Below, in pieces: positions 4,780-20,318 of a stretch of DNA of 64,000 nt (its first letter is position 1; every line of letters starts with the position of its first letter). A program made the position numbers and the translations under genes. The stretch is taken from contig VGAK01000005.1 of NCBI GenBank assembly GCA_016870775.1, positions 1 to 64,000 of the forward strand. Reading direction: 5' to 3'. A model generated the notes under the pieces. That model was not told where the DNA came from. It saw nothing but the letters and a program-made list of their open reading frames with translations, and searched no databases. The stretch comes from Actinomycetota bacterium (lineage in GTDB: Bacteria; Actinomycetota; Acidimicrobiia; Acidimicrobiales; Ilumatobacteraceae).

Positions 4780-6149
4780 GCTCGCGAGCCGACCTCGTCG
4801 TCCGCAACGCCGATCTCCTCGCCACCGTGGACACCACACGGCGCGAGATCCGCGGGGGATGGGTGGCGATAACCGGCGGCCTCGTCTCTGCCGTGGGCGG
4901 GCCGAGGGATGCACAACCCGAGGCCGACGAGGTCGTCGATGCATCCGGGTGCCTCGTGACACCGGGACTCGTCAACACCCACCACCACCTCTACCAGAAC
5001 CTCACGCGGGCGTTCCCGCCGATGACGACGAGTCCCCTGTTCGGGTGGTTGAAGGCGTTGTATCCGTTGTGGCGCGCCCTCGACGAGGAATCCGCGCACG
5101 TCTCGGCATGGGTCGGACTCGCCGAATTGGCGCTGTCGGGTTGCACGACCTCGACCGACCATCTCTACCTGCATCCGCGCGGTGGCGGAGATCTGCTCTC
5201 GGCAGAGATCGCCGCGGCGGTGGATCTCGGCATGCGTTTCCACCCGACGCGCGGGTCGATGTCGCTGTCGGAGAAGGACGGTGGTCTGCCTCCCGACGAC
5301 GTGGTGCAGGACGACGACACGATCCTGGCCGAGTCCGAGGTCGCGGTCGCGCGCCACCACGACAGGAGCCACGGTGCGATGGTGCGCGTCGCGCTCGCCC
5401 CGTGCTCGCCGTTCAGCGTCACGCGCGATCTCATGGTGAGATCAGCCGAACTCGCCGAGAAGCTGGATGTGCGGCTCCACACCCACTTCGCGGAGAACGC
5501 CGAGGACGACGACTTCTCCCTCGCGATGTTCGGGTGCCGACCGTTCGAGTACCTGCGAGATGTCGGCTGGTTGTCGGATCGCACCTGGGTCGCCCACTGC
5601 GTGATGCCGAACGAGACCGAGATCGCAGAGCTCGGTCGTGCCGGGATCGGCGCGGCACATTGCCCCTCGTCGAACCTCATCTTGGCCTCGGGGATCGCAC
5701 CCGTCACCGCGTTGCGGCGCGCGGGGGTGCACGTCGGGTTGGGTGTCGACGGCTCATCGAGCGCCGACAGCGCCTCGTTGTGGCTCGAGGCCCGGCAGGC
5801 AATGTTGCTCGCCAAGTTGCGCGACGGGGCAGCGGCGGCCGACGCACGGATGGCACTCGAGATGGCCACGGTCGGTGGTGCGGGGTGTCTCGGCCGAGTC
5901 GGAGAGGTCGGTTCCCTCCAGGTCGGTGCCGTGGGTGATGTCGCGGTGTGGTCACTCGAGGGGCCCCTGTTCGCGGGCGCGATCGCCGATCCGCTCGAGG
6001 CATGGCTCAGGTGCGGGCCCGTCGGTGCGCGCGACACGATCGTGCACGGTCGGTTCGTGGTGCGGGATGGTCGTCTGGTGTCCCCGAGGGTCGCCGAGAT
6101 GCTCACCACTCACCGACGCCTGGCGGTACGCATGCAGAACCCGAGTTGA
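4776..6149 (+). CDS. amidohydrolase, 8-oxoguanine deaminase-like
   Basis: Metal-dependent deaminase of the cytosine deaminase/TrzN/8-oxoguanine deaminase branch (457 aa). Metal ligands are seen in NTHHHLYQN, in HTHFAEN and in WVAHCVMPNETE, and the last catalytic Asp is in GVDGSSSADSASLWLE. The segment LTRAFPPMTTSPLFGWLKAL closely resembles known 8-oxoguanine deaminases, so hydrolysis of 8-oxoguanine to urate is the best guess; another deaminated heterocycle is possible. It starts at the ATG overlapping the stop of the decarboxylase gene. Confidence 0.85.
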   Translation: MSSRADLVVRNADLLATVDTTRREIRGGWVAITGGLVSAVGGPRDAQPEADEVVDASGCLVTPGLVNTHHHLYQNLTRAFPPMTTSPLFGWLKALYPLWRALDEESAHVSAWVGLAELALSGCTTSTDHLYLHPRGGGDLLSAEIAAAVDLGMRFHPTRGSMSLSEKDGGLPPDDVVQDDDTILAESEVAVARHHDRSHGAMVRVALAPCSPFSVTRDLMVRSAELAEKLDVRLHTHFAENAEDDDFSLAMFGCRPFEYLRDVGWLSDRTWVAHCVMPNETEIAELGRAGIGAAHCPSSNLILASGIAPVTALRRAGVHVGLGVDGSSSADSASLWLEARQAMLLAKLRDGAAAADARMALEMATVGGAGCLGRVGEVGSLQVGAVGDVAVWSLEGPLFAGAIADPLEAWLRCGPVGARDTIVHGRFVVRDGRLVSPRVAEMLTTHRRLAVRMQNPS

Positions 6150-13047: not shown

Positions 13048-13650
13048 TCAGAGTTCCTCGCCGATCTCGCCGTGCTCGAACAACTCGACGATCTCGCCCA
13101 CGTCGATCCGCACCTCGTCGCCGCCATGGACGGTGAAGTGGCAGCCACCGAGGTTGGGAATCTTCCTGTCCGGCACACCCAGATGACGGCGCATCACGCG
13201 CATCACACCGCCGTGCGCCACACAGAGCACCTCCTCGCCGGGGAACGCGCGCGCGAGGTCACCGAGCGCACCCCTGACGCGCACGACGATGCTCGCGTCG
13301 GGCTCGAATCCGGGCGGTCGCCTGTGGCTGTCGAGATAGCCGGGCCACCGGGTCTCTATCTCCGCGGCGGTGAGGCCCTCCCACTCACCCACGTGCGTCT
13401 CGCGGAACCTGGGGTCGGCGGGGAGGGTCGAGATCCCGAGGGATCCCGCGATGATCTCGGCGGTCATCCGTGCACGTTCGAGGTCGCTCGAGGCGATGGC
13501 GGCGAACGACCCCAGTTTGTCGGCGGCGCGACGCGCCTGCTCGAGCCCCAGGTCGGTGAGGGCGATGTCGGCCTGTCCCTGCCAGCGCCGCGCCGCGTTC
13601 CACTCGCTCTGGCCGTGGCGCAGGACGAGCACGCGGGTCGCAGGAGTCAC
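13048..13650 (-). CDS. histidine phosphatase (phosphoglycerate mutase-like)
   Basis: Two-histidine phosphatase superfamily protein (200 aa). The RHG motif is in LVLRHGQSEWNAARRWQGQ, the second pair in DLERARMTAEII and FRETHVGEWEGL, and the second catalytic His in VLCVAHGGVMR. Probably a phosphatase on a small phosphoester rather than glycolytic mutase; substrate unknown. The GTG at 13650 was preferred over ATG 13653 because TAGAAT lies 6 nt upstream of it. Confidence 0.88.
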   Translation of the reverse strand: MTPATRVLVLRHGQSEWNAARRWQGQADIALTDLGLEQARRAADKLGSFAAIASSDLERARMTAEIIAGSLGISTLPADPRFRETHVGEWEGLTAAEIETRWPGYLDSHRRPPGFEPDASIVVRVRGALGDLARAFPGEEVLCVAHGGVMRVMRRHLGVPDRKIPNLGGCHFTVHGGDEVRIDVGEIVELFEHGEIGEEL

Positions 13651-13656
13651 CATTCG

Positions 13657-13680: not shown

Positions 13681-14220
13681 TCAGCGTTGCTCGGTGATGC
13701 AGGCGAGGATGTCGGCGAAGATCTTGTCGGCGAGGTTGCGCATCTCGTCGTCGGTGCGGTCCTGGATGGGGTGCGAGCAGAAGACACGCTTCATGCCGGG
13801 GAACCCGAGCGAGGCCTGCTGTGCATCGGCACCGGAGACGAACTCATCGGAGGCCACGAACATCCCGGGCACGCCGCGCATCTCCAGATCTGCGATGTCG
13901 TGCACACTGCACGACGTGCAGCTGCCTCAATCAGCGAGCGCCTCGATGACGACGTTGCACGAGATGGAGATCTCATGGCGCAGGTCGACTGGTGCGGGCT
14001 TCGTAAAGGTGGGCTTCTTGAAGCGCATCACGGTGGCGCCGCGCTCCACCAGCAGTTCCTCGATGCGGTCGAGGAATTTGTCGCCGCGGGGCTTGGAGAT
14101 GTCGAGCAGGCCGACGGTGAGTCCCGCCACCGACCCCGGGCGCTGGAGCGGCGTGCGCGTCGAGGGCCGCGACTCGCCGGTGGGGTCGAGGATCGTGATG
14201 CCTTGGTTCGCCGGGCCCAT
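13681..14220 (-). CDS. UGSC-family selenoprotein with in-frame UGA (selenocysteine 98)
   Basis: A single 179-residue reading frame is interrupted by one TGA (13929-13927). Read as selenocysteine, it gives ALAD-Sec-GSCTSCSVHD, which is the defining Sec-Gly-Ser-Cys motif of UGSC (seleno)proteins. Sequence upstream (GPANQGITILDPTGES, VGLLDISKPRGDKFLDRIEE) and downstream (MRGVPGMFVASDEFVSGADA) is continuous in style and codon use. A stem-loop starts 11 nt after the UGA. tRNA-Sec and selA, selB and selD lie within 6 kb, so read-through is well supported. Start is ATG 14220 or GTG 14238. A standard gene caller would split it into two pieces. The gene ends at a second TGA, which must act as a stop. 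Family function is unknown, presumably a thiol/selenol redox enzyme. Confidence 0.9.
13897..13915 (-). promoter_or_regulatory. candidate SECIS stem-loop
   Basis: On the minus strand GTCGTGCA-GTG-TGCACGAC forms a perfect 8-bp hairpin with a 3-nt loop. It begins after 11 nt following the selenocysteine UGA, the spacing reported as critical for the upper stem-loop of bacterial SECIS elements. It lies in the coding sequence, as expected for bacteria, and should bind the C-terminal domain of SelB. Confidence 0.75.
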
Positions 14221-14300
14221 CGGCTCTGAGTATGTCACCCCCGCCGCCGCGCCGGTCCGATCGGGCGTGGGTCGCCGCGAGGCGCAACCCACGCCGGGGC

Positions 14301-15746
14301 TCAGGTGCCCACGGCCCTGGTCACCGGGTCCGATCCGATCGCGCCGTTCGCCCACCCGGCGATGATCGAGGAGAACAGGCCGGCACCCCCGCCGGCGAAG
14401 GCCACCAGCAGACCACCCGGCCGGAACTTCGGGAGCGACTCGACCGAGGCGAGATGGGCGGGGACTCCCTCGGCCATGCCGTGAGCACCCCGTGCCAGGT
14501 CGCGCCCGGGCGTGCCGAGCCGTGCATCGAGTGCGTCCACGAGTTGCTCGCGCGTCCAGCCCGCATCGGCGAGGATGCGCCCGTGGTCCGGGCTGACCAC
14601 CAGGATCGCATCGAATCCGATCACGAGCTTCGGATGGTGCACCGTGCGCAGGCACGCCGCATATGACGCGGCAAGCTCCTCGGGTGTTCGCGCGAGTTGA
14701 TCGACGACGCAGCGCGGTCCCTCGCCGGCGAACACCGTCACGGCGTTCCGACCCGGTTCGATCCCGCGCGCGACCGACAACGGTGGGAACGGGCTCGCGT
14801 CCTCGTCCTCGGCGAAACAGAACGAAAGTTTCCCCGGGTTGCCGTGCGTGGCGCGGTCGACCTCGCCCGGACGGCCACCCCCGACGTTGCGGATCGTCAG
14901 TTGCACCGCGCGACCGATCGAGGAGTTGGCCCGGTTCCCCTGACCGAAGGCGTTGATGCCCGAGTTCATGCCGATCGCCCTGGTTCCCGGTCCGTTGCAG
15001 ACGATCACCGGCCCGACCGGCATCGTCGTGGCGAGGACACCGTGCATGTTGAAGGTGTCGTTGCACACAGCCTCGAGCGCGGCGATCACCCATGGCAAGT
15101 GCTCGGGCAGACAACCAGCCATCACCGCGTTGATGGCGATCTTCTCGACGGTCATCTCGACCAGATCGGGAGGTGCGATCGCCACCACCTCCGAGGGTTC
15201 GCGCGTGGTCCCGGTGAGCATGCGCAGGACGCGCTCGCGGGTCGGTGGCACGACCGGCAGGCCGTCGGTCCAGCCGCGCGCGAAGAGCGCCTCGAACTCG
15301 TCCTCGGTCGCGGAGAGCTCCACGCGTCGCGACACGAGGACATCGCCCGTGAATCTCGCACGGAGGCCGTCGATGAGATCCGGGTCGACGCTCATCGAGC
15401 CGCACCCCGGTCGCGTCGGCGGGAGATCCGCGCCCAACGTGGCCATACCGGTGATCCCTCGCCACTCGTCACGCGACCATCCGATCGTGCGCTCGACCTC
15501 CGCGCCGTCGCGCACGGAGATGAGCGTGGGAACCGTCCCGATGTCGTGGTGCCACGAGACGGCGAGATCCGTGTCGTGCACGGCACCGAGTTCGACGCAG
15601 AAAGTCGGATCGTCCTGGACCCACACCGCGAGCGGTGCGCCGGTCGCGGCGATGGCCGAGAGCACCGGCTCGACCATCCTGCACGTCTCGCATTCGCGCT
15701 TGACGATCGCGACCAATCCGTCCGGGAGAACAGGCTGAGCGGTCAT
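14301..15746 (-). CDS. thioredoxin-like protein fused to a large UGSC-associated domain
   Basis: A 481-residue protein. Residues 1-95 look like a thioredoxin domain with a CETC active site (IVKRECETCRMVEPVL) and a GTVPTLISVRDG region for the cis-Pro loop. The remaining 380 residues are a domain I cannot name: FARGWTDGLPVVPPTRERVL, EKIAINAVMAGCLPEHLPWV, MPVGPVIVCNGPG and AFGQGNRANSSIGRAVQL are its most conserved-looking parts. It is 80 nt upstream of the UGSC selenoprotein gene on the same strand and probably in one transcript, so it may reduce, or act with, that protein. The ATG start has TAGCGT 6 nt upstream. Confidence 0.7.
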   Translation of the reverse strand: MTAQPVLPDGLVAIVKRECETCRMVEPVLSAIAATGAPLAVWVQDDPTFCVELGAVHDTDLAVSWHHDIGTVPTLISVRDGAEVERTIGWSRDEWRGITGMATLGADLPPTRPGCGSMSVDPDLIDGLRARFTGDVLVSRRVELSATEDEFEALFARGWTDGLPVVPPTRERVLRMLTGTTREPSEVVAIAPPDLVEMTVEKIAINAVMAGCLPEHLPWVIAALEAVCNDTFNMHGVLATTMPVGPVIVCNGPGTRAIGMNSGINAFGQGNRANSSIGRAVQLTIRNVGGGRPGEVDRATHGNPGKLSFCFAEDEDASPFPPLSVARGIEPGRNAVTVFAGEGPRCVVDQLARTPEELAASYAACLRTVHHPKLVIGFDAILVVSPDHGRILADAGWTREQLVDALDARLGTPGRDLARGAHGMAEGVPAHLASVESLPKFRPGGLLVAFAGGGAGLFSSIIAGWANGAIGSDPVTRAVGT

Positions 15747-15752
15747 GAACCG

Positions 15753-15758
15753 ACGCTA
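15753..15758 (-). promoter_or_regulatory. -10 element TAGCGT for the thioredoxin-UGSC unit
   Basis: TAGCGT on the minus strand is 6 nt before the ATG at 15746. It is divergent from, and 23 bp away from, the promoter of tRNA-Sec. Confidence 0.5.
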
Positions 15759-15781
15759 GTCGTGCCGTCCGTCGGCGCGAT

Positions 15782-15787
15782 TAGCCT
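15782..15787 (+). promoter_or_regulatory. -10 element TAGCCT for tRNA-Sec
   Basis: TAGCCT ends 7 nt before G1 of tRNA-Sec, so transcription should begin at or next to the mature 5' end, with no 5' leader. Confidence 0.55.
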
Positions 15788-15794
15788 CACGAAC

Positions 15795-15890
15795 GGAGGC
15801 GTGCGAGCACCTGGTGGGCTTCGCTGTCTTCAAAACAGTCGGGACGGGCGACCCCCGTCCGGCGGGTTCGATTCCCGTCCGCCTCCGCCA
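15795..15890 (+). tRNA. selC: tRNA-Sec (anticodon UCA)
   Basis: A 96-nt tRNA with encoded CCA. Acceptor strands are GGAGGCGT and CCGCCTCC followed by discriminator G; the first seven pairs are perfect and the eighth is T-C. The anticodon stem GCTGT/ACAGT closes a CTTCAAA loop with anticodon TCA, decoding UGA. The variable arm is a long hairpin (GGACGGG/CCCGTCC) and the T arm is GCGGG-TTCGATT-CCCGT, or six pairs if the next bases are counted. The D stem GAGCAC/GGGCTT contains a mismatch. Long variable arm, UCA anticodon and 13-bp acceptor-T stack identify it. It is transcribed opposite to the flanking genes and abuts the selB stop codon. Confidence 0.95.
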
Positions 15891-17594
15891 TCACGTGCTG
15901 CCGCGACCGAGCCGTGGACCCGCGATGCGCATGTCGCCGCGCCGGAGGGTCCAACCCGCTCGATCGAGGCAAGCCGCCAGGGGAACTGCGTGCTTGCGAG
16001 TGATCCCGAGTCGCTCGCGCAGCGTCGAGACGGTGAACCCCCCGGGATGGGCGGCGAGGAGCTCCGCCACGACCGGCGCGAGCGAGGCGATGATGTCGGC
16101 GTGAAAAGCCATGCCGTCGTGCTCGAGGACATGACCGGCAGCGACGAGACGTCGCACGATGTCGCGGTCCAGCCCGGCAGTCCCGGGGCCCGCGATGCCG
16201 GCGTTCCTGATCGCTTCGGCGATCGGGTGGGAAGCGAGCGGGTCGGCACCGCGACGTGCCACGCCAACCTCGATGCGCACATCAGCGAACGTGGCGACGA
16301 GATCGCGCTCCCACGGCTCGAGCAGTTCCAGCGCGACATCGCCCCTGTCGAGCATCGACGACAACCGTGACGTGGCGGCCTCGAGGTTCGCGGGTGCGGC
16401 ACACCACCGACCCACCACCGGCACCACGTCGCGGCCGGTGAGCCGGCGGGCAACTTTGGTGTCGATGAATCCGTGGGCCGCCAACTGCGACTCGACGGAC
16501 CCGTCCGGCCGGGCATGGGAGGGACGCCGCAGCGGTGCGACATCGAGCACCGTGCCTCCTGCGATCGTGGTCGCATCCCCGGTGCGGCGCACCACGATGC
16601 GATCCCCGGGCGCCATCGGCCATGCACGGGGAATCCGCACACGCCAGAGCCCGGGTGTCGCGAGCGGGCGCAGTGAGGCCTCGACACGGTCGGTCCCGAA
16701 GTGGACGGTGTGGCCCGATCCCGGGCGCGGGGGCTCGTCGATTCCGCGCGCGGGGTCGATCCGCACGTCGAAGACATCCGTGACGTGCCAGTCACCATCG
16801 ACCACGAGTGCGTCACCCCGCTCGATGTCGGCGGTGGAGAGACTCGCCAGGTTGACTGCGCACCGGTGTCCGGGGAGACACTCGCTGATGGACCCACCGT
16901 GGCGCTGCAACGACCGGATGTGGCCGCGCGTCCCGGTGCGCACGATCATCACCTCATCGCCGACGCGGAGTCGGCCATGTCCGAGGGTCCCGGTCACGAT
17001 CGTTCCCGCCCCGGGGATCGTGAAGACCCGGTCCACGAACAGGCGCGGGCGTCCGTCGGGTGCCCCTGCCGTCGACGATGCCGATGCCACCGTGCCGAGC
17101 GTGTCCCGCAGTGCGCGACGGCACTCTGCGAGGCCGACCCCGGTCAGCGACGACACCGGCATAGGGGTCGTCCACCGGATCGGGCTCGAGGCGAGGATGG
17201 CGGTGGTTTCCCGTGAGAGTTCGGCGAGACGATCGTCATCGACCAGATCGCACTTGGTGAGAGCGACCACACCGGCGGGGACCGCGAGCAGCTCGAGGAT
17301 CGCGAGGTGCTCGCGGGTCTGTGGCATCCATCCCTCGCGTGCGTCGATCACGAGCAGGACCGCACCAACCGCTGCCACTCCGGCGACCATCGTGCGCACG
17401 AGGTCGGCGTGGCCGGGGACGTCGACGAAGCTCAGCACACTCCCGTCGTCACCGTCGGTGTGGGCGAAACCCAACTCGATCGTCATGCCGCGGCGCTTCT
17501 CCTCGGCGAGTCGGTCGGGGTCGGTGCCGGTCAACGCCCGGACGAGCGAGGATTTTCCGTGGTCGACGTGTCCGGCGGTCGCGATGACCGTCAC
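15891..17594 (-). CDS. selB: selenocysteine-specific elongation factor SelB
   Basis: Translation GTPase (567 aa; E. coli SelB 614) that carries Sec-tRNA to ribosomes paused at a UGA with a SECIS hairpin. G motifs: GHVDHGKSSLVRAL, the switch GMTIELGFA, DVPGHADLVRTM and TKCD. EF-Tu-like domains 2 and 3 follow (about residues 175-340). The C-terminal part contains winged-helix repeats (VVAELLAAHPGGFTVSTLRE), the SECIS-binding module. The GTG start overlaps the selA stop codon (GTGA). The stop codon is directly next to the CCA end of tRNA-Sec. Confidence 0.95.
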   Translation of the reverse strand: MTVIATAGHVDHGKSSLVRALTGTDPDRLAEEKRRGMTIELGFAHTDGDDGSVLSFVDVPGHADLVRTMVAGVAAVGAVLLVIDAREGWMPQTREHLAILELLAVPAGVVALTKCDLVDDDRLAELSRETTAILASSPIRWTTPMPVSSLTGVGLAECRRALRDTLGTVASASSTAGAPDGRPRLFVDRVFTIPGAGTIVTGTLGHGRLRVGDEVMIVRTGTRGHIRSLQRHGGSISECLPGHRCAVNLASLSTADIERGDALVVDGDWHVTDVFDVRIDPARGIDEPPRPGSGHTVHFGTDRVEASLRPLATPGLWRVRIPRAWPMAPGDRIVVRRTGDATTIAGGTVLDVAPLRRPSHARPDGSVESQLAAHGFIDTKVARRLTGRDVVPVVGRWCAAPANLEAATSRLSSMLDRGDVALELLEPWERDLVATFADVRIEVGVARRGADPLASHPIAEAIRNAGIAGPGTAGLDRDIVRRLVAAGHVLEHDGMAFHADIIASLAPVVAELLAAHPGGFTVSTLRERLGITRKHAVPLAACLDRAGWTLRRGDMRIAGPRLGRGST

Positions 17595-18895
17595 GGTGCA
17601 CCCAGTGATCGGAGCGCGTCGACCACGATGCCGTCATCGGCGGGGTCCACGGAGCGCAGGTCCAGGATCGTGGTGCCCTCCGATTGGCGCGCGACGACGG
17701 GCACGACATGGCCGCGCAAGGCTGCTGTGCGGTCACCGTCGAGGGCGATGCCGTGCGAGTCGATGGTGGTGTCGGGCGCCGACCCCGCACCGACGAGGGA
17801 CGTGGTCGCGATGGCTCGGCCGCACCCGGCCCGACGGGTGATCTCCTCGGCGCGCCGGGCGAGTGTCTCGGTGTCAGTGGTGAGCATCCGCCAGAACGGG
17901 ATCGCCTCGCACGCCGTCCTCGCCGCGAAGTGCAGGAGTGCCTCCTGGAGCAACTGGAGAGTGTGGCCCCCGGGCCTGAGCGCACGCATCAACGGGTGCG
18001 CGGCACACGCGGCGACGAGGTCGGCGCGCCCCGCGACGATGCCGCACTGGGGTCCGCCGAGGAGCTTGTCGCCGCTGAAGGTGACGAGGTCGGCGCCGTC
18101 GGCGAGCGCCTGGCGCGCCGCGGGCTCGGTGCGCAACCAGCCCGGCACGTGCATGTTCCCCCCGTGCGGCCTCGCCGTCATCCATGGGCAGTCGTTGTCG
18201 AGGAGTCCCGATCCGATGTCGACCACCACCGGCACCGGGAGCGTCGCGAGATCGGGCACCGGGGTCGACTCCACGAAGCCGATCTGTGCGAAATTTGACG
18301 GGTGCACCTTCATCACCAGGGCGATGTCGCTCGTGGGGGAATCGATCGCGCGTGAGTAGTCGGCCAGACGGGTGCGGTTGGTGGTGCCGACATCGACGAG
18401 CCGGGCACCGGACTGCTCCATCACCTCGGGAACCCTGAAGCCACCGCCGATCTCGACCGACTCCCCCCGCGACAGCGCGACGCCGCGTCCGTTCGCGAGC
18501 GCTGCGAGCACCAGCATCACGGCTGCGGCGTTGTTGTTGACAACCACCGCGGACTCCGCGCCTGTCAGGATGCGCAGGAGGCGCGCGATCGGGTCCTGGC
18601 GCGATCCGCGCGACCCCGTCGCGAGGTCGAACTCGAGTGCACTCGGTCGACCCGAGGTGGACATGGACAGTGGGGCGCGACCGAGGTTGGTGTGCAGCAG
18701 GACGCCCGTCGCGTTCACCACATCGGCCAGCAGGGCGCGCCGAAGTTCGTCGGCGAGTCGATCAGCGAGTGCCACGGCATCGATCGGCTGTTCCGACACG
18801 GCGCGCCGCGCACAGTCGACCAGCACCGCGTGCGGGAGCTCGTGGCGGGTGGCGAGGTCTCGCGCCAGTGCATCGACCGAGGGCGGGTGCGTCAC
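17591..18895 (-). CDS. selA: L-seryl-tRNA(Sec) selenium transferase SelA
   Basis: PLP enzyme (434 aa) converting Ser-tRNA-Sec to Sec-tRNA-Sec with selenophosphate. Conserved blocks: ADVVNATGVLLHTNLGRAPL, VVNNNAAAVMLVLAALANGR, SRGESVEIGGGFRVPEVMEQ, VDIGSGLL and TFSGDKLLGGPQCGI, whose Lys binds PLP. The GTG at 18895 overlaps the stop of a short leaderless ORF (GTGA), suggesting translational coupling; ATG 18910 in the same frame is an alternative. It is followed by selB with a 4-bp overlap. Confidence 0.94.
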   Translation of the reverse strand: MTHPPSVDALARDLATRHELPHAVLVDCARRAVSEQPIDAVALADRLADELRRALLADVVNATGVLLHTNLGRAPLSMSTSGRPSALEFDLATGSRGSRQDPIARLLRILTGAESAVVVNNNAAAVMLVLAALANGRGVALSRGESVEIGGGFRVPEVMEQSGARLVDVGTTNRTRLADYSRAIDSPTSDIALVMKVHPSNFAQIGFVESTPVPDLATLPVPVVVDIGSGLLDNDCPWMTARPHGGNMHVPGWLRTEPAARQALADGADLVTFSGDKLLGGPQCGIVAGRADLVAACAAHPLMRALRPGGHTLQLLQEALLHFAARTACEAIPFWRMLTTDTETLARRAEEITRRAGCGRAIATTSLVGAGSAPDTTIDSHGIALDGDRTAALRGHVVPVVARQSEGTTILDLRSVDPADDGIVVDALRSLGAP

Positions 18896-18948
18896 GGACC
18901 GACCACCCATTCCGTGACGACGGCGACCATCGCAACTGCTCGGTTCAC
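18892..18948 (-). CDS. putative leaderless leader peptide upstream of selA
   Basis: An 18-residue ORF (starts GTG AAC CGA GCA, encodes MNRAVAMVAVVTEWVVGP) begins 6 nt after TAGGTT and ends at a TGA that overlaps the selA GTG start. If transcription starts at the GTG, ribosomes would translate this peptide first and could be handed on to selA. No homologue is known to me; it may simply be a coupling device. Confidence 0.4.
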   Translation of the reverse strand: MNRAVAMVAVVTEWVVGP

Positions 18949-18954
18949 GCGATC

Positions 18955-18960
18955 AACCTA
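18955..18960 (-). promoter_or_regulatory. -10 element TAGGTT for the selA-selB unit
   Basis: TAGGTT on the minus strand is 6 nt before the GTG at 18948. The divergent selD gene uses the same hexamer at 19009. Confidence 0.5.
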
Positions 18961-19008
18961 GTGAGGACCGACGCCGACCCGACCGGTCGTGGCGCACCGG
19001 CGCATGGC

Positions 19009-19014
19009 TAGGTT
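19009..19014 (+). promoter_or_regulatory. -10 element TAGGTT for leaderless selD
   Basis: TAGGTT is 6 nt before the ATG at 19021. Confidence 0.5.
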
Positions 19015-19020
19015 CTCCCC

Positions 19021-20028
19021 ATGGGCGCTCCCACCGATCCGGTTCGGCTCACCGAGTGGACCTCGTGCGGTGGGTGCGCCGCCAAGTGGGGTGCCTCCCT
19101 GCTCGGTGAGATGGTGGGAGCCCTGCCGGTCGGGTTCGATTCCTCGCTGTTGGTCGGGCTCGCACCCTTCGACGATGCCGCCGTGTACCGCCTGTCCGAT
19201 GAGTTGGCCCTCGTGAGCACCGTCGACTTCTTTCCTCCGCTGGTGGATGACCCCGACGATTTCGGTGCGATCGCGGCTGCGAACGCGTGCAGCGACGTCT
19301 TTGCCATGGGCGGGCGCGTGGTCCTTGCCGTGAACGTCGCGGCGTTCCCCGAGGAACTGCCGCGCGAAGTGATCGCCGCCATCCTCGCGGCCGCCTCGCG
19401 CACGGTTGCCGAGGCCGGTGGCACCGTGGCCGGGGGGCACACGATCCGCAACCCGGAGCCGATCTTCGGACTCGCGGTGCAGGGAGTCGTCGATCCGCGA
19501 CGGGTACTGCGCAAGTCCGGCGCCCGTGCCGGTGACGCGGCCGTTCTCTCCAAGCCGCTCGGAACCGGTGTCGTCACCGCGGGCGGGACCGCGACCCAGG
19601 TGCGGGGCGCGATCGCGGGAATGAGGACCCTCAACCGATCCGCGGCCGAGCAACTCATCGCGCTCGGTGATGCGGTGCGGGCCGCCACGGATGTGACGGG
19701 ATATGGACTCGCGGGTCACGGCTGGGAGATGGCGGATCGGTCGGGGGTGCATCTTGTCGTCGATGCGTCGTCGTTGCCTCTGTACACGGGTGCGCGGGAG
19801 GCCGTCGGTCGCGGCGTGCGCACGGGTGGCGACCCGCGCAACCGCGCCTATGTGGAGGGTCGGTTCTGGTCGGTCGACGAGGTCGCAACGGCACTGTGCA
19901 TGGACCCCCAGACCTCCGGGGGCCTCCTCGCAGCCGTCGATGAGTCGGTGGTGTCGCGTCTCGTGGACGCCGGCTGGGCGAGGGTGGGGGAGTTCACCGG
20001 CGAGACACCGGGCGTCACGATCTCGTGA
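19021..20028 (+). CDS. selD: selenide, water dikinase (selenophosphate synthetase)
   Basis: Makes selenophosphate from selenide and ATP (335 aa). The active-site loop reads TSCGGCAAKWGASLL, so this is the Cys rather than the Sec form. Further motifs: PFDDAAVYRL, VSTVDFFPPLVDDPDDFGAI, AANACSDVFAMGG, GGHTIRNPEPIFGLAV, LSKPLGTGVV, DVTGYGLAGHGWEMA and DPQTSGGLLAAV. Divergent from selA, with 72 bp between this ATG and the start of the selA leader ORF. The MoaD-like gene follows after 50 nt. Confidence 0.95.
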   Translation: MGAPTDPVRLTEWTSCGGCAAKWGASLLGEMVGALPVGFDSSLLVGLAPFDDAAVYRLSDELALVSTVDFFPPLVDDPDDFGAIAAANACSDVFAMGGRVVLAVNVAAFPEELPREVIAAILAAASRTVAEAGGTVAGGHTIRNPEPIFGLAVQGVVDPRRVLRKSGARAGDAAVLSKPLGTGVVTAGGTATQVRGAIAGMRTLNRSAAEQLIALGDAVRAATDVTGYGLAGHGWEMADRSGVHLVVDASSLPLYTGAREAVGRGVRTGGDPRNRAYVEGRFWSVDEVATALCMDPQTSGGLLAAVDESVVSRLVDAGWARVGEFTGETPGVTIS

Positions 20029-20064
20029 GCGACGGGTCGCGGGCTCGTGGTGTCTGGCCGCCGT

Positions 20065-20070
20065 TACCAT
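20065..20070 (+). promoter_or_regulatory. -10 element TACCAT for the moaD-like gene
   Basis: TACCAT is 8 nt before the ATG at 20079, so this gene may have its own leaderless promoter besides read-through from selD. Confidence 0.45.
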
Positions 20071-20078
20071 TCGCAGCG

Positions 20079-20318
20079 ATGGCCGTGATCCGACTCTTCG
20101 CCCAGGCTCGCGAGGCCGCCGGCACGGGCACGACCACCATCGATGCACCGACCGTGGCGGCGGTTCTGGACCAAGCCGTGGCCAGGTGGGGTGAGGGATT
20201 CGCAGCCGTTCTCGCGGGCTGCAAGGTGTGGGTGAACGGCGAGGAGGTGCCACTTGCGACCGCGGTGGGCGACAAAGATGAGGTGGCGGTGCTCCCGCCC
20301 GTCTCCGGAGGTTCGTGA
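20079..20318 (+). CDS. MoaD/ThiS-family beta-grasp sulfur carrier-like protein
   Basis: Small ubiquitin-like protein (79 aa). It starts AVIRLFAQAREAAG and ends VAVLPPVSGGS, the MoaD pattern. The chain ends Gly-Gly-Ser instead of Gly-Gly, so one residue would have to be removed before C-terminal activation, or it is not a carrier. No E1-like or moaE gene is in the window. The stop TGA is immediately followed by the start of the RsiG-like gene. Molybdopterin synthesis is the family's main role; another sulfur (or selenium) carrier role is possible. Confidence 0.8.
   Translation: MAVIRLFAQAREAAGTGTTTIDAPTVAAVLDQAVARWGEGFAAVLAGCKVWVNGEEVPLATAVGDKDEVAVLPPVSGGS

Follow-up and report, generated by a model that had tools for sequence, protein, structure and literature searches.

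A selenocysteine-decoding gene block beside a UGSC-family selenoprotein and its partner has probably moved as a unit between related Ilumatobacteraceae genomes

In the 64,000-nucleotide stretch of contig VGAK01000005.1 (assembly GCA_016870775.1, family Ilumatobacteraceae) that was analysed here and is referred to as the window, positions 13,681 to 20,028 hold a 6.3-kb block that combines a gene of the UGSC selenoprotein family, the gene of a partner protein and the genes for decoding selenocysteine (Sec). The block is best explained, at a probability of about 0.72, as a complete Sec-decoding module that is tied to the enzyme system of UGSC and its partner and that has travelled as one unit among related genomes, with the stops of UGSC and SelD as its ends. 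This reading draws on the sequences themselves, namely on the gene set, the conservation of the Sec codon and of the hairpin, the neighbourhood of UGSC and partner, two insertion sites, empty sites and a conflict between trees. The first-pass annotation of this DNA had placed all genes for Sec synthesis and insertion, together with a selenoprotein gene, within 6.3 kb, and this was borne out: selA, selB, selC and selD, the four genes of the bacterial Sec-decoding trait, are all in the block (Table 1). The compact order with 4-bp overlaps that had also been described holds for selA and selB, whose reading frames overlap by 4 bp, and selD is transcribed divergently from them.

The family searches identified these genes with scores above the respective cut-offs. 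The UGSC protein matched NF041046 with 158.8 bits (cut-off 125) and PF24696 with 153.4 bits (cut-off 25), the latter being its sole Pfam match at E <= 0.001. SelA matched TIGR00474 (382.8 bits, cut-off 267.9), SelB matched TIGR00475 (278 bits, cut-off 242.25) and SelD matched TIGR00476 (325.7 bits, cut-off 125). The tRNA-Sec reached 66.3 bits against RF01852 (gathering score 47), and its discriminator G and an encoded CCA were read from the sequence.

The Sec codon and the hairpin

The UGSC gene carries a U-G-S-C motif with a Sec codon and a hairpin of the selenocysteine insertion sequence (SECIS) type, and Sec insertion is predicted. One in-frame TGA was found in 47 of 51 UGSC matches of relatives, and the other four were two Cys forms and two fragments. 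At the named partner loci described below, 75 motif positions, counted without two alignment rows at L195 that had slipped, comprised 73 TGA, two TAG and no Cys codons. As judged from these alignments, the conservation of TGA at the UGSC motif exceeds chance. The hairpin of the window folded with a z of -1.70; among 70 distinct long-form UGSC homologues the mean z was -2.37, and z was below -1 in 61 of the 70. Stem pairing over the 70 distinct long-form sequences was 94.5%, compared with 4-56% for slid partners, and when synonymous codons were shuffled within columns, pairing averaged 93.7% with a maximum of 94.3%, so that 0 of 500 shuffles reached the observed value. Because these codon-preserving shuffles average 93.7%, most of the hairpin pairing is also set by the coding sequence.

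TAG rather than TGA stands at the UGSC Sec site in L142:9662 and L157:9662 (Blastococcus, Geodermatophilus). UAG-decoded selenocysteine in Geodermatophilaceae had already been reported, according to the consulted part of that work (PMC5330540); the TAG of the Blastococcus and Geodermatophilus UGSC genes is like that system, whereas the window differs from it in its TGA codon and TCA anticodon.

UGSC and its partner as a pair

Relatives were surveyed in 61 genomes, namely the window's own genome (G000) and 60 others, of which 32 form the genus subset. UGSC and partner were both found in 37 of the 61 genomes and neither in 20; three had a partner without a full UGSC, each at a contig end, and one had a weak UGSC fragment alone. 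Beyond these genomes, the best 80 of 584 confirmed partner loci (the named loci) cover, by record title, Actinomycetota, Proteobacteria, Acidobacteriota, Chloroflexi, Myxococcota and Hydrogenedentota. The UGSC gene lay within the examined piece at 75 of these 80 loci and mostly adjoined the partner, although the two were 7.5 kb apart in L134 and 3.9 kb apart in L137, and on opposite strands in L165, L168 and L169. On this sampling, UGSC and partner are usually neighbours across many phyla.

The N-terminal 100 residues of the partner form a thioredoxin fold with a CxxC motif, and this domain is absent from the short partners in the alignment; the partner matched no Pfam family, and its only profile match, a weak one, was to thioredoxin. 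The thioredoxin-like fusion that the first-pass annotation had assigned to UGSC thus exists, but it belongs to the partner and not to UGSC. In G047, a relative in the same order (L062-L072), ten diverged UGSC genes were found, nine with TGA and one with TGC (Cys), and for eight of the ten a partner match lay on the same contig. Some of these genes lie near thiolase, short-chain dehydrogenase/reductase, CoA-ligase, amidohydrolase or luciferase-like genes, few of these neighbours having been searched by family.

The UGSC-containing selenoprotein family (PF24696/NF041046) was described in the 2008 Global Ocean Sampling survey, in the consulted part of which a UGSC/'Unknown_1' fusion is also noted (PMC2398784). 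The window protein resembles that family in its UGSC motif, Sec codon and size, and it lies above both family cut-offs; new here, relative to the part consulted, are the partner as the usual neighbour and the relation to GrdB and PrdB.

Relation to GrdB and PrdB and a possible mechanism

GrdB and PrdB are the selenol-bearing subunits of the glycine, betaine and D-proline reductases. When the UGSC and GRDB profiles were aligned with hhalign, the score was 47.4 (probability 88%, E 3e-6) with the Sec columns in register, whereas no more than 15.4 was reached in 60 column shuffles and 12.1 with the reversed control; the score was 41.5 with Sec to Sec+6 masked and 43.7 with the long-form UGSC alignment alone. 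The GRDB alignment is small, with eight rows, one of which is a full GrdB from G044 with the motif UGTGTRC. The Sec of UGSC is in register with this GrdB motif, and in the same region of the profile comparison both have a subsequent L-E-x-x-G-I/V-P stretch; unlike GrdB and PrdB, UGSC is short, stands alone and has its own partner gene. The GrdB/PrdB family PF07355 gave no match in the Pfam search of the UGSC protein, and UGSC is therefore called a probable distant relative, not a member, of the Sec domain of the glycine/proline-reductase B proteins. In the consulted parts of the UGSC literature, no statement of a GrdB/PrdB relation or of a UGSC-selA block was found.

The structure model of UGSC had a mean predicted local distance difference test score (pLDDT) of 89.6 and consists of a five-stranded alpha/beta unit in which Sec98 follows strand 3 and caps the N-terminus of a helix. 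The Cys at +3 from Sec is invariant in both UGSC alignments, and the Cys at +6 is invariant in the long form only. By the known pathways, SelD would make selenophosphate, SelA would convert Ser-tRNA-Sec to Sec-tRNA-Sec, and SelB would bring the latter to the UGA of UGSC. The UGSC selenol would then attack a small organic substrate held together with the C-terminal domain of the partner, Cys101 (or Cys104) would resolve the Se adduct to a selenenyl-sulfide, and the thioredoxin domain of the partner (CETC) would reduce it. This sequence of attack, resolution and reduction, modelled on the chemistry of relatives and on protein anatomy, is put forward tentatively, and our best guess is that UGSC and partner may form a selenol reductase of two components in which the thioredoxin domain of the partner does the recycling. 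With the link to GrdB/PrdB and a partner fused to thioredoxin, a selenoprotein family that was an orphan becomes a testable enzyme.

The strongest competing view is that UGSC and partner are a general thiol-disulfide or peroxide-reducing system for oxidant defence and not a substrate-specific reductase, as the thioredoxin domain of the partner might suggest and as would suit the thioredoxin-like fold that the 2008 survey, in the part consulted, supposed for UGSC (PMC2398784). This is rather unlikely: UGSC is modelled as a five-stranded alpha/beta unit, and none of the 50 structures listed for the model is a thioredoxin; the profile relation of UGSC is to GrdB/PrdB, and the ten UGSC genes of G047, some of them beside catabolic-type genes, are as expected of substrate-specific enzymes.

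As a separate observation, a full-length GrdB-family gene with an in-frame TGA lies at L102:1498-2802 in G044 (TIGR01918, 406 bits, cut-off 65), an order relative with no UGSC match.

Filled and empty insertion sites

At least one side of the block was seen between a histidine phosphatase gene (PGM) and moaD in 14 genus genomes (the first site, site A), and PGM and moaD were adjacent without the block in 10 genomes. The empty first site was found in G007, G011 and G030, whose genomes gave no match to UGSC, partner or selA, in G021, G027 and G031, which have the block elsewhere, and in G032, G033, G034 and G036, which belong to other genera. The distance between the PGM and moaD matches is 25-79 bp in nine of these genomes, and the tenth shows a small overlap. 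UGSC and selA matches were also absent from G010, G013 and G019, whose contigs end before the first site or in which the site was not located.

At a second site (site B), the block was found in G020, G021, G027 and G031; in G020 and G027 it is truncated by the end of a contig. In both of the whole second-site loci a kinase-like gene overlaps the UGSC end by 4 bp; the gap between the SelD stop and the next gene measures 15 bp in G021; in G031 it is 1,259 bp and includes another open reading frame (ORF). Because the UGSC and SelD ends match in these loci, the block ends alike at both sites, to the extent measured in two loci. All genes from 13,681 to 20,028 were accounted for and no integrase or transposase is among them, and no repeat joins both block ends among the families listed, which were 20 of the 25 direct families and 25 of the 36 inverted ones, the junctions having otherwise been compared by eye. 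The presence of empty and filled sites in close relatives offers a way to study the movement of a genetic-code extension.

Outside the genus, selA-selB and the UGSC-partner pair lie on separate contigs in G032, G034 and G036. A related record (L130) has the order SelA-SelB-tRNA-partner-UGSC, with no selD in the piece examined. Given the separate contigs in these three genomes and the grouping of their SelA and SelB with those of the genus, the block seems to have been assembled within the family.

Two further features of second-site genomes were noted. The G027 assembly (3% contamination) contains two block copies, L059 and L241, which may represent a duplicate or a foreign contig, and in G031 two ORFs at L210:3974-5115, which by eye resemble an IS3-type transposase pair, lie a few kb from the SelD end of the block.

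Phylogenetic tests of transfer

The phylogeny of the block was compared with that of its surroundings in 17 genomes, using six flank genes and five joint block proteins. In the flank-gene tree, the second-site genomes fall outside the first-site clade, and forcing them beside five of its members was rejected by the approximately unbiased (AU) test (p-AU 6e-78). In the joint block tree, the second-site genomes fall inside the first-site group, and monophyly of the first site was rejected (p-AU 0.0088). RpoB (15 genomes) placed the first-site genomes and G011 in one clade with support of 100/98, and second-site genomes inside it were rejected (p 7e-4). Moreover, the second-site genomes are closer in identity to the core first-site genomes than G000 and G018 are in five of five block genes and in none of eight others. 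One transfer of the block within the genus is, on these results, probable.

An unlikely alternative is that the genus inherited the block vertically as an ancestral operon, which was only relocated within the second-site lineage and lost in others, with no transfer between species. It would fit with the grouping of the genus SelA and SelB with other genera of the family, with the single-gene AU tests, which do not reject a first-site clade, and with G007, G011 and G030, in which loss is plausible; it is at odds with the rejection of that clade by the joint block tree, with the rejection by RpoB and the flank genes of second-site genomes inside the first-site clade, and with the identity pattern that only the block genes show.

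Movement of the block as a unit is preferred, but several observations weigh against it or against its parts. A first-site clade was not rejected by SelA (p-AU 0.216), SelB (0.109), partner (0.115) or UGSC (0.352) singly, the SelD single-gene tree had no outgroup, and SelB rejects the core first-site and second-site genomes as one clade (p 0.047), which is the simplest nesting. The clade test on the joint trees was picked after a quick tree had been seen, and the flank genes used as a yardstick are linked to the first site, while rpoB is about 60 kb away on the same contig in the window's own genome. At family level, the genus SelA and SelB fall together with those of the family's other genera, including G032, G034 and G036; the block lacks a mobility gene, and incomplete assemblies make absence weak evidence (G030 is 63% complete). 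As to the client, the excess of the hairpin over coding constraint is small, and the diverged short-form UGSC genes had z below -1 in only 3 of 10 sequences. The score of the GRDB match drops to 34.8 once the single full GrdB row is removed and is 30.1 when only that row is kept, PF07355 does not match UGSC, and the catalytic step proposed above is drawn from relatives and anatomy. The portable unit that the first-pass annotation had suggested is supported within the genus by empty sites, a second site and the conflict of the joint block tree with the flank genes and RpoB; its weaknesses are that the single-gene trees are not significant alone and that at family level SelA and SelB of the genus join those of other genera in the family.

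Comparison with transferred Sec cassettes

According to the consulted parts of earlier work, fdhA beside selA-selB-selC has moved as a Sec trait in Pseudomonadales and others (PMC1794560), a transferred Sec trait is also present in Photobacterium profundum (PMC1273633), and formate dehydrogenase or SelD is credited with maintaining Sec use (PMC1794560). The block is like the fdhA-linked cassettes in that clustered sel genes move with a selenoprotein gene, here at genus level and by the joint tree only. It is unlike them in that the client is UGSC with its partner and not FdhA or a Sec-containing SelD, that the block of the window includes selD, and that the transfer is within a genus with an empty site and the unit ends visible. 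Neither UGSC selenoproteins nor Sec genes transferred together with a client are new in themselves; the block with UGSC and partner is a new variant.

A SelA match was found in 11 of the 80 named loci, three of which are the same contigs as G001, G012 and G020. In Beta- and Gammaproteobacteria, the order partner-UGSC followed by selA-selB was found in L160, L162, L163, L171, L173 and L183, with a tRNA-Sec after selA-selB in L160, L162 and L173; Rfam gives the same assignment for the tRNA in L160 and L162. Inspection by eye of the three such loci that were gene-called showed no fdhA. SelA and SelB of these six loci and of L186 form a separate clade. Given this separate clade and the other gene order, the Sec genes appear to have been packed beside the pair at least twice. 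It is possible, and we offer it tentatively, that UGSC and partner are a stand-alone branch of GrdB/PrdB chemistry with their own fused thioredoxin and a large family of catabolic paralogues, around which Sec genes were packed at least twice independently (in Acidimicrobiia and in Beta/Gammaproteobacteria), and that in Acidimicrobiia the block, with fixed ends, spread as one piece and without a mobility gene of its own.

Other probable selenoproteins

In the AhpC-TSA search of the window's own genome, a lipoprotein-like gene of the thioredoxin/AhpC fold was found at about 5345-5914 of G000:C3 (L289:1846-2415, + strand, TGA at 2113), in which TGA replaces the first redox cysteine (WAPG-U-GTC, or UGTC). 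Only a weak hairpin lies downstream of this TGA, and the gene is therefore no more than probably a second selenoprotein gene of this genome. A PrdB-like gene with TGA in U-P-L-C occurs in 9 of the 32 genus genomes (L106, L108-L115), namely G004, G009, G014, G019, G020, G022, G025, G026 and G028; G019 carries it with no selA match, perhaps owing to an incomplete assembly.

That the neighbour is not a formate dehydrogenase, as the first-pass annotation had remarked, agrees with what was seen: the ORF list and family profile searches gave no such gene in the block, which also has no grd or prd genes, and an in-frame TGA is absent from every match to the alpha subunit of formate dehydrogenase (Fdh-alpha) that was listed for the 32 genus genomes, in a listing truncated among its weakest matches. 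Among the matches listed, TGA-bearing Fdh-alpha covers most of the profile in seven non-genus genomes (one at 40-578 of 672 only), further non-genus genomes have shorter ones, and the carriers lie in other families of the order and two other genera of the family. Sec use is patchy, and this genus retains and passes on the machinery beside UGSC without a listed Sec formate dehydrogenase; together with the Cys form of SelD in the window, this indicates that another client is able to maintain the Sec machinery. The idea of a portable one-client cassette, with UGSC as the host's sole selenoprotein and the machinery serving it alone, is very improbable despite the absence of a listed TGA-bearing formate dehydrogenase in the genus, the Cys form of SelD and the lack of a GRDB match in G000, because the own genome has the UGTC gene and nine other genus genomes have the PrdB-like TGA gene.

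Coordinates and flanking genes

The features of the block and its flanks are collected in Table 1. The longest ORF for moaD overlaps with the stop of selD, although an alternative, later moaD ATG at 20080 is possible.

Table 1. Positions of the block features and flanking genes in the window
Feature	Position	Strand	Remarks
Histidine phosphatase gene (PGM), left flank	13048..13653	-	PF00300; adjoins moaD in genomes without the block at the site
UGSC-family selenoprotein gene	13681..14220	-	180 codons including stop; NF041046, PF24696
SECIS-type hairpin	13897..13915	-	8-bp stem, 3-nt loop, 11 nt past the Sec codon
UGSC Sec codon TGA	13927-13929	-	codon 98
Partner protein gene	14301..15746	-	481 aa; thioredoxin domain and uncatalogued domain
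Partner uncatalogued C-terminal domain	14304-15389	-	residues about 120-481
Partner thioredoxin fold with CETC	about 15444-15743	-	residues 2-101
tRNA-Sec (selC)	15795..15890	+	anticodon TCA; ARAGORN; RF01852
selB, Sec-specific elongation factor	15891..17594	-	TIGR00475; SelB winged helix PF09107
selA, Sec synthase	17591..18910	-	TIGR00474
selD, selenophosphate synthetase	19021..20028	+	Cys form, Cys read from sequence; TIGR00476
MoaD/ThiS-like gene (moaD), right flank	20025..20318	+	PF02597

In the relatives, the tRNA-Sec of the block was typed by ARAGORN as tRNA-Phe(aaa) or tRNA-Val(aac), with a shifted anticodon, in L045, L058, L081, L213 and L215-L219, and Rfam returned tRNA-Sec in all five of the mistyped loci that were checked (L045, L058, L081, L217 and L219).

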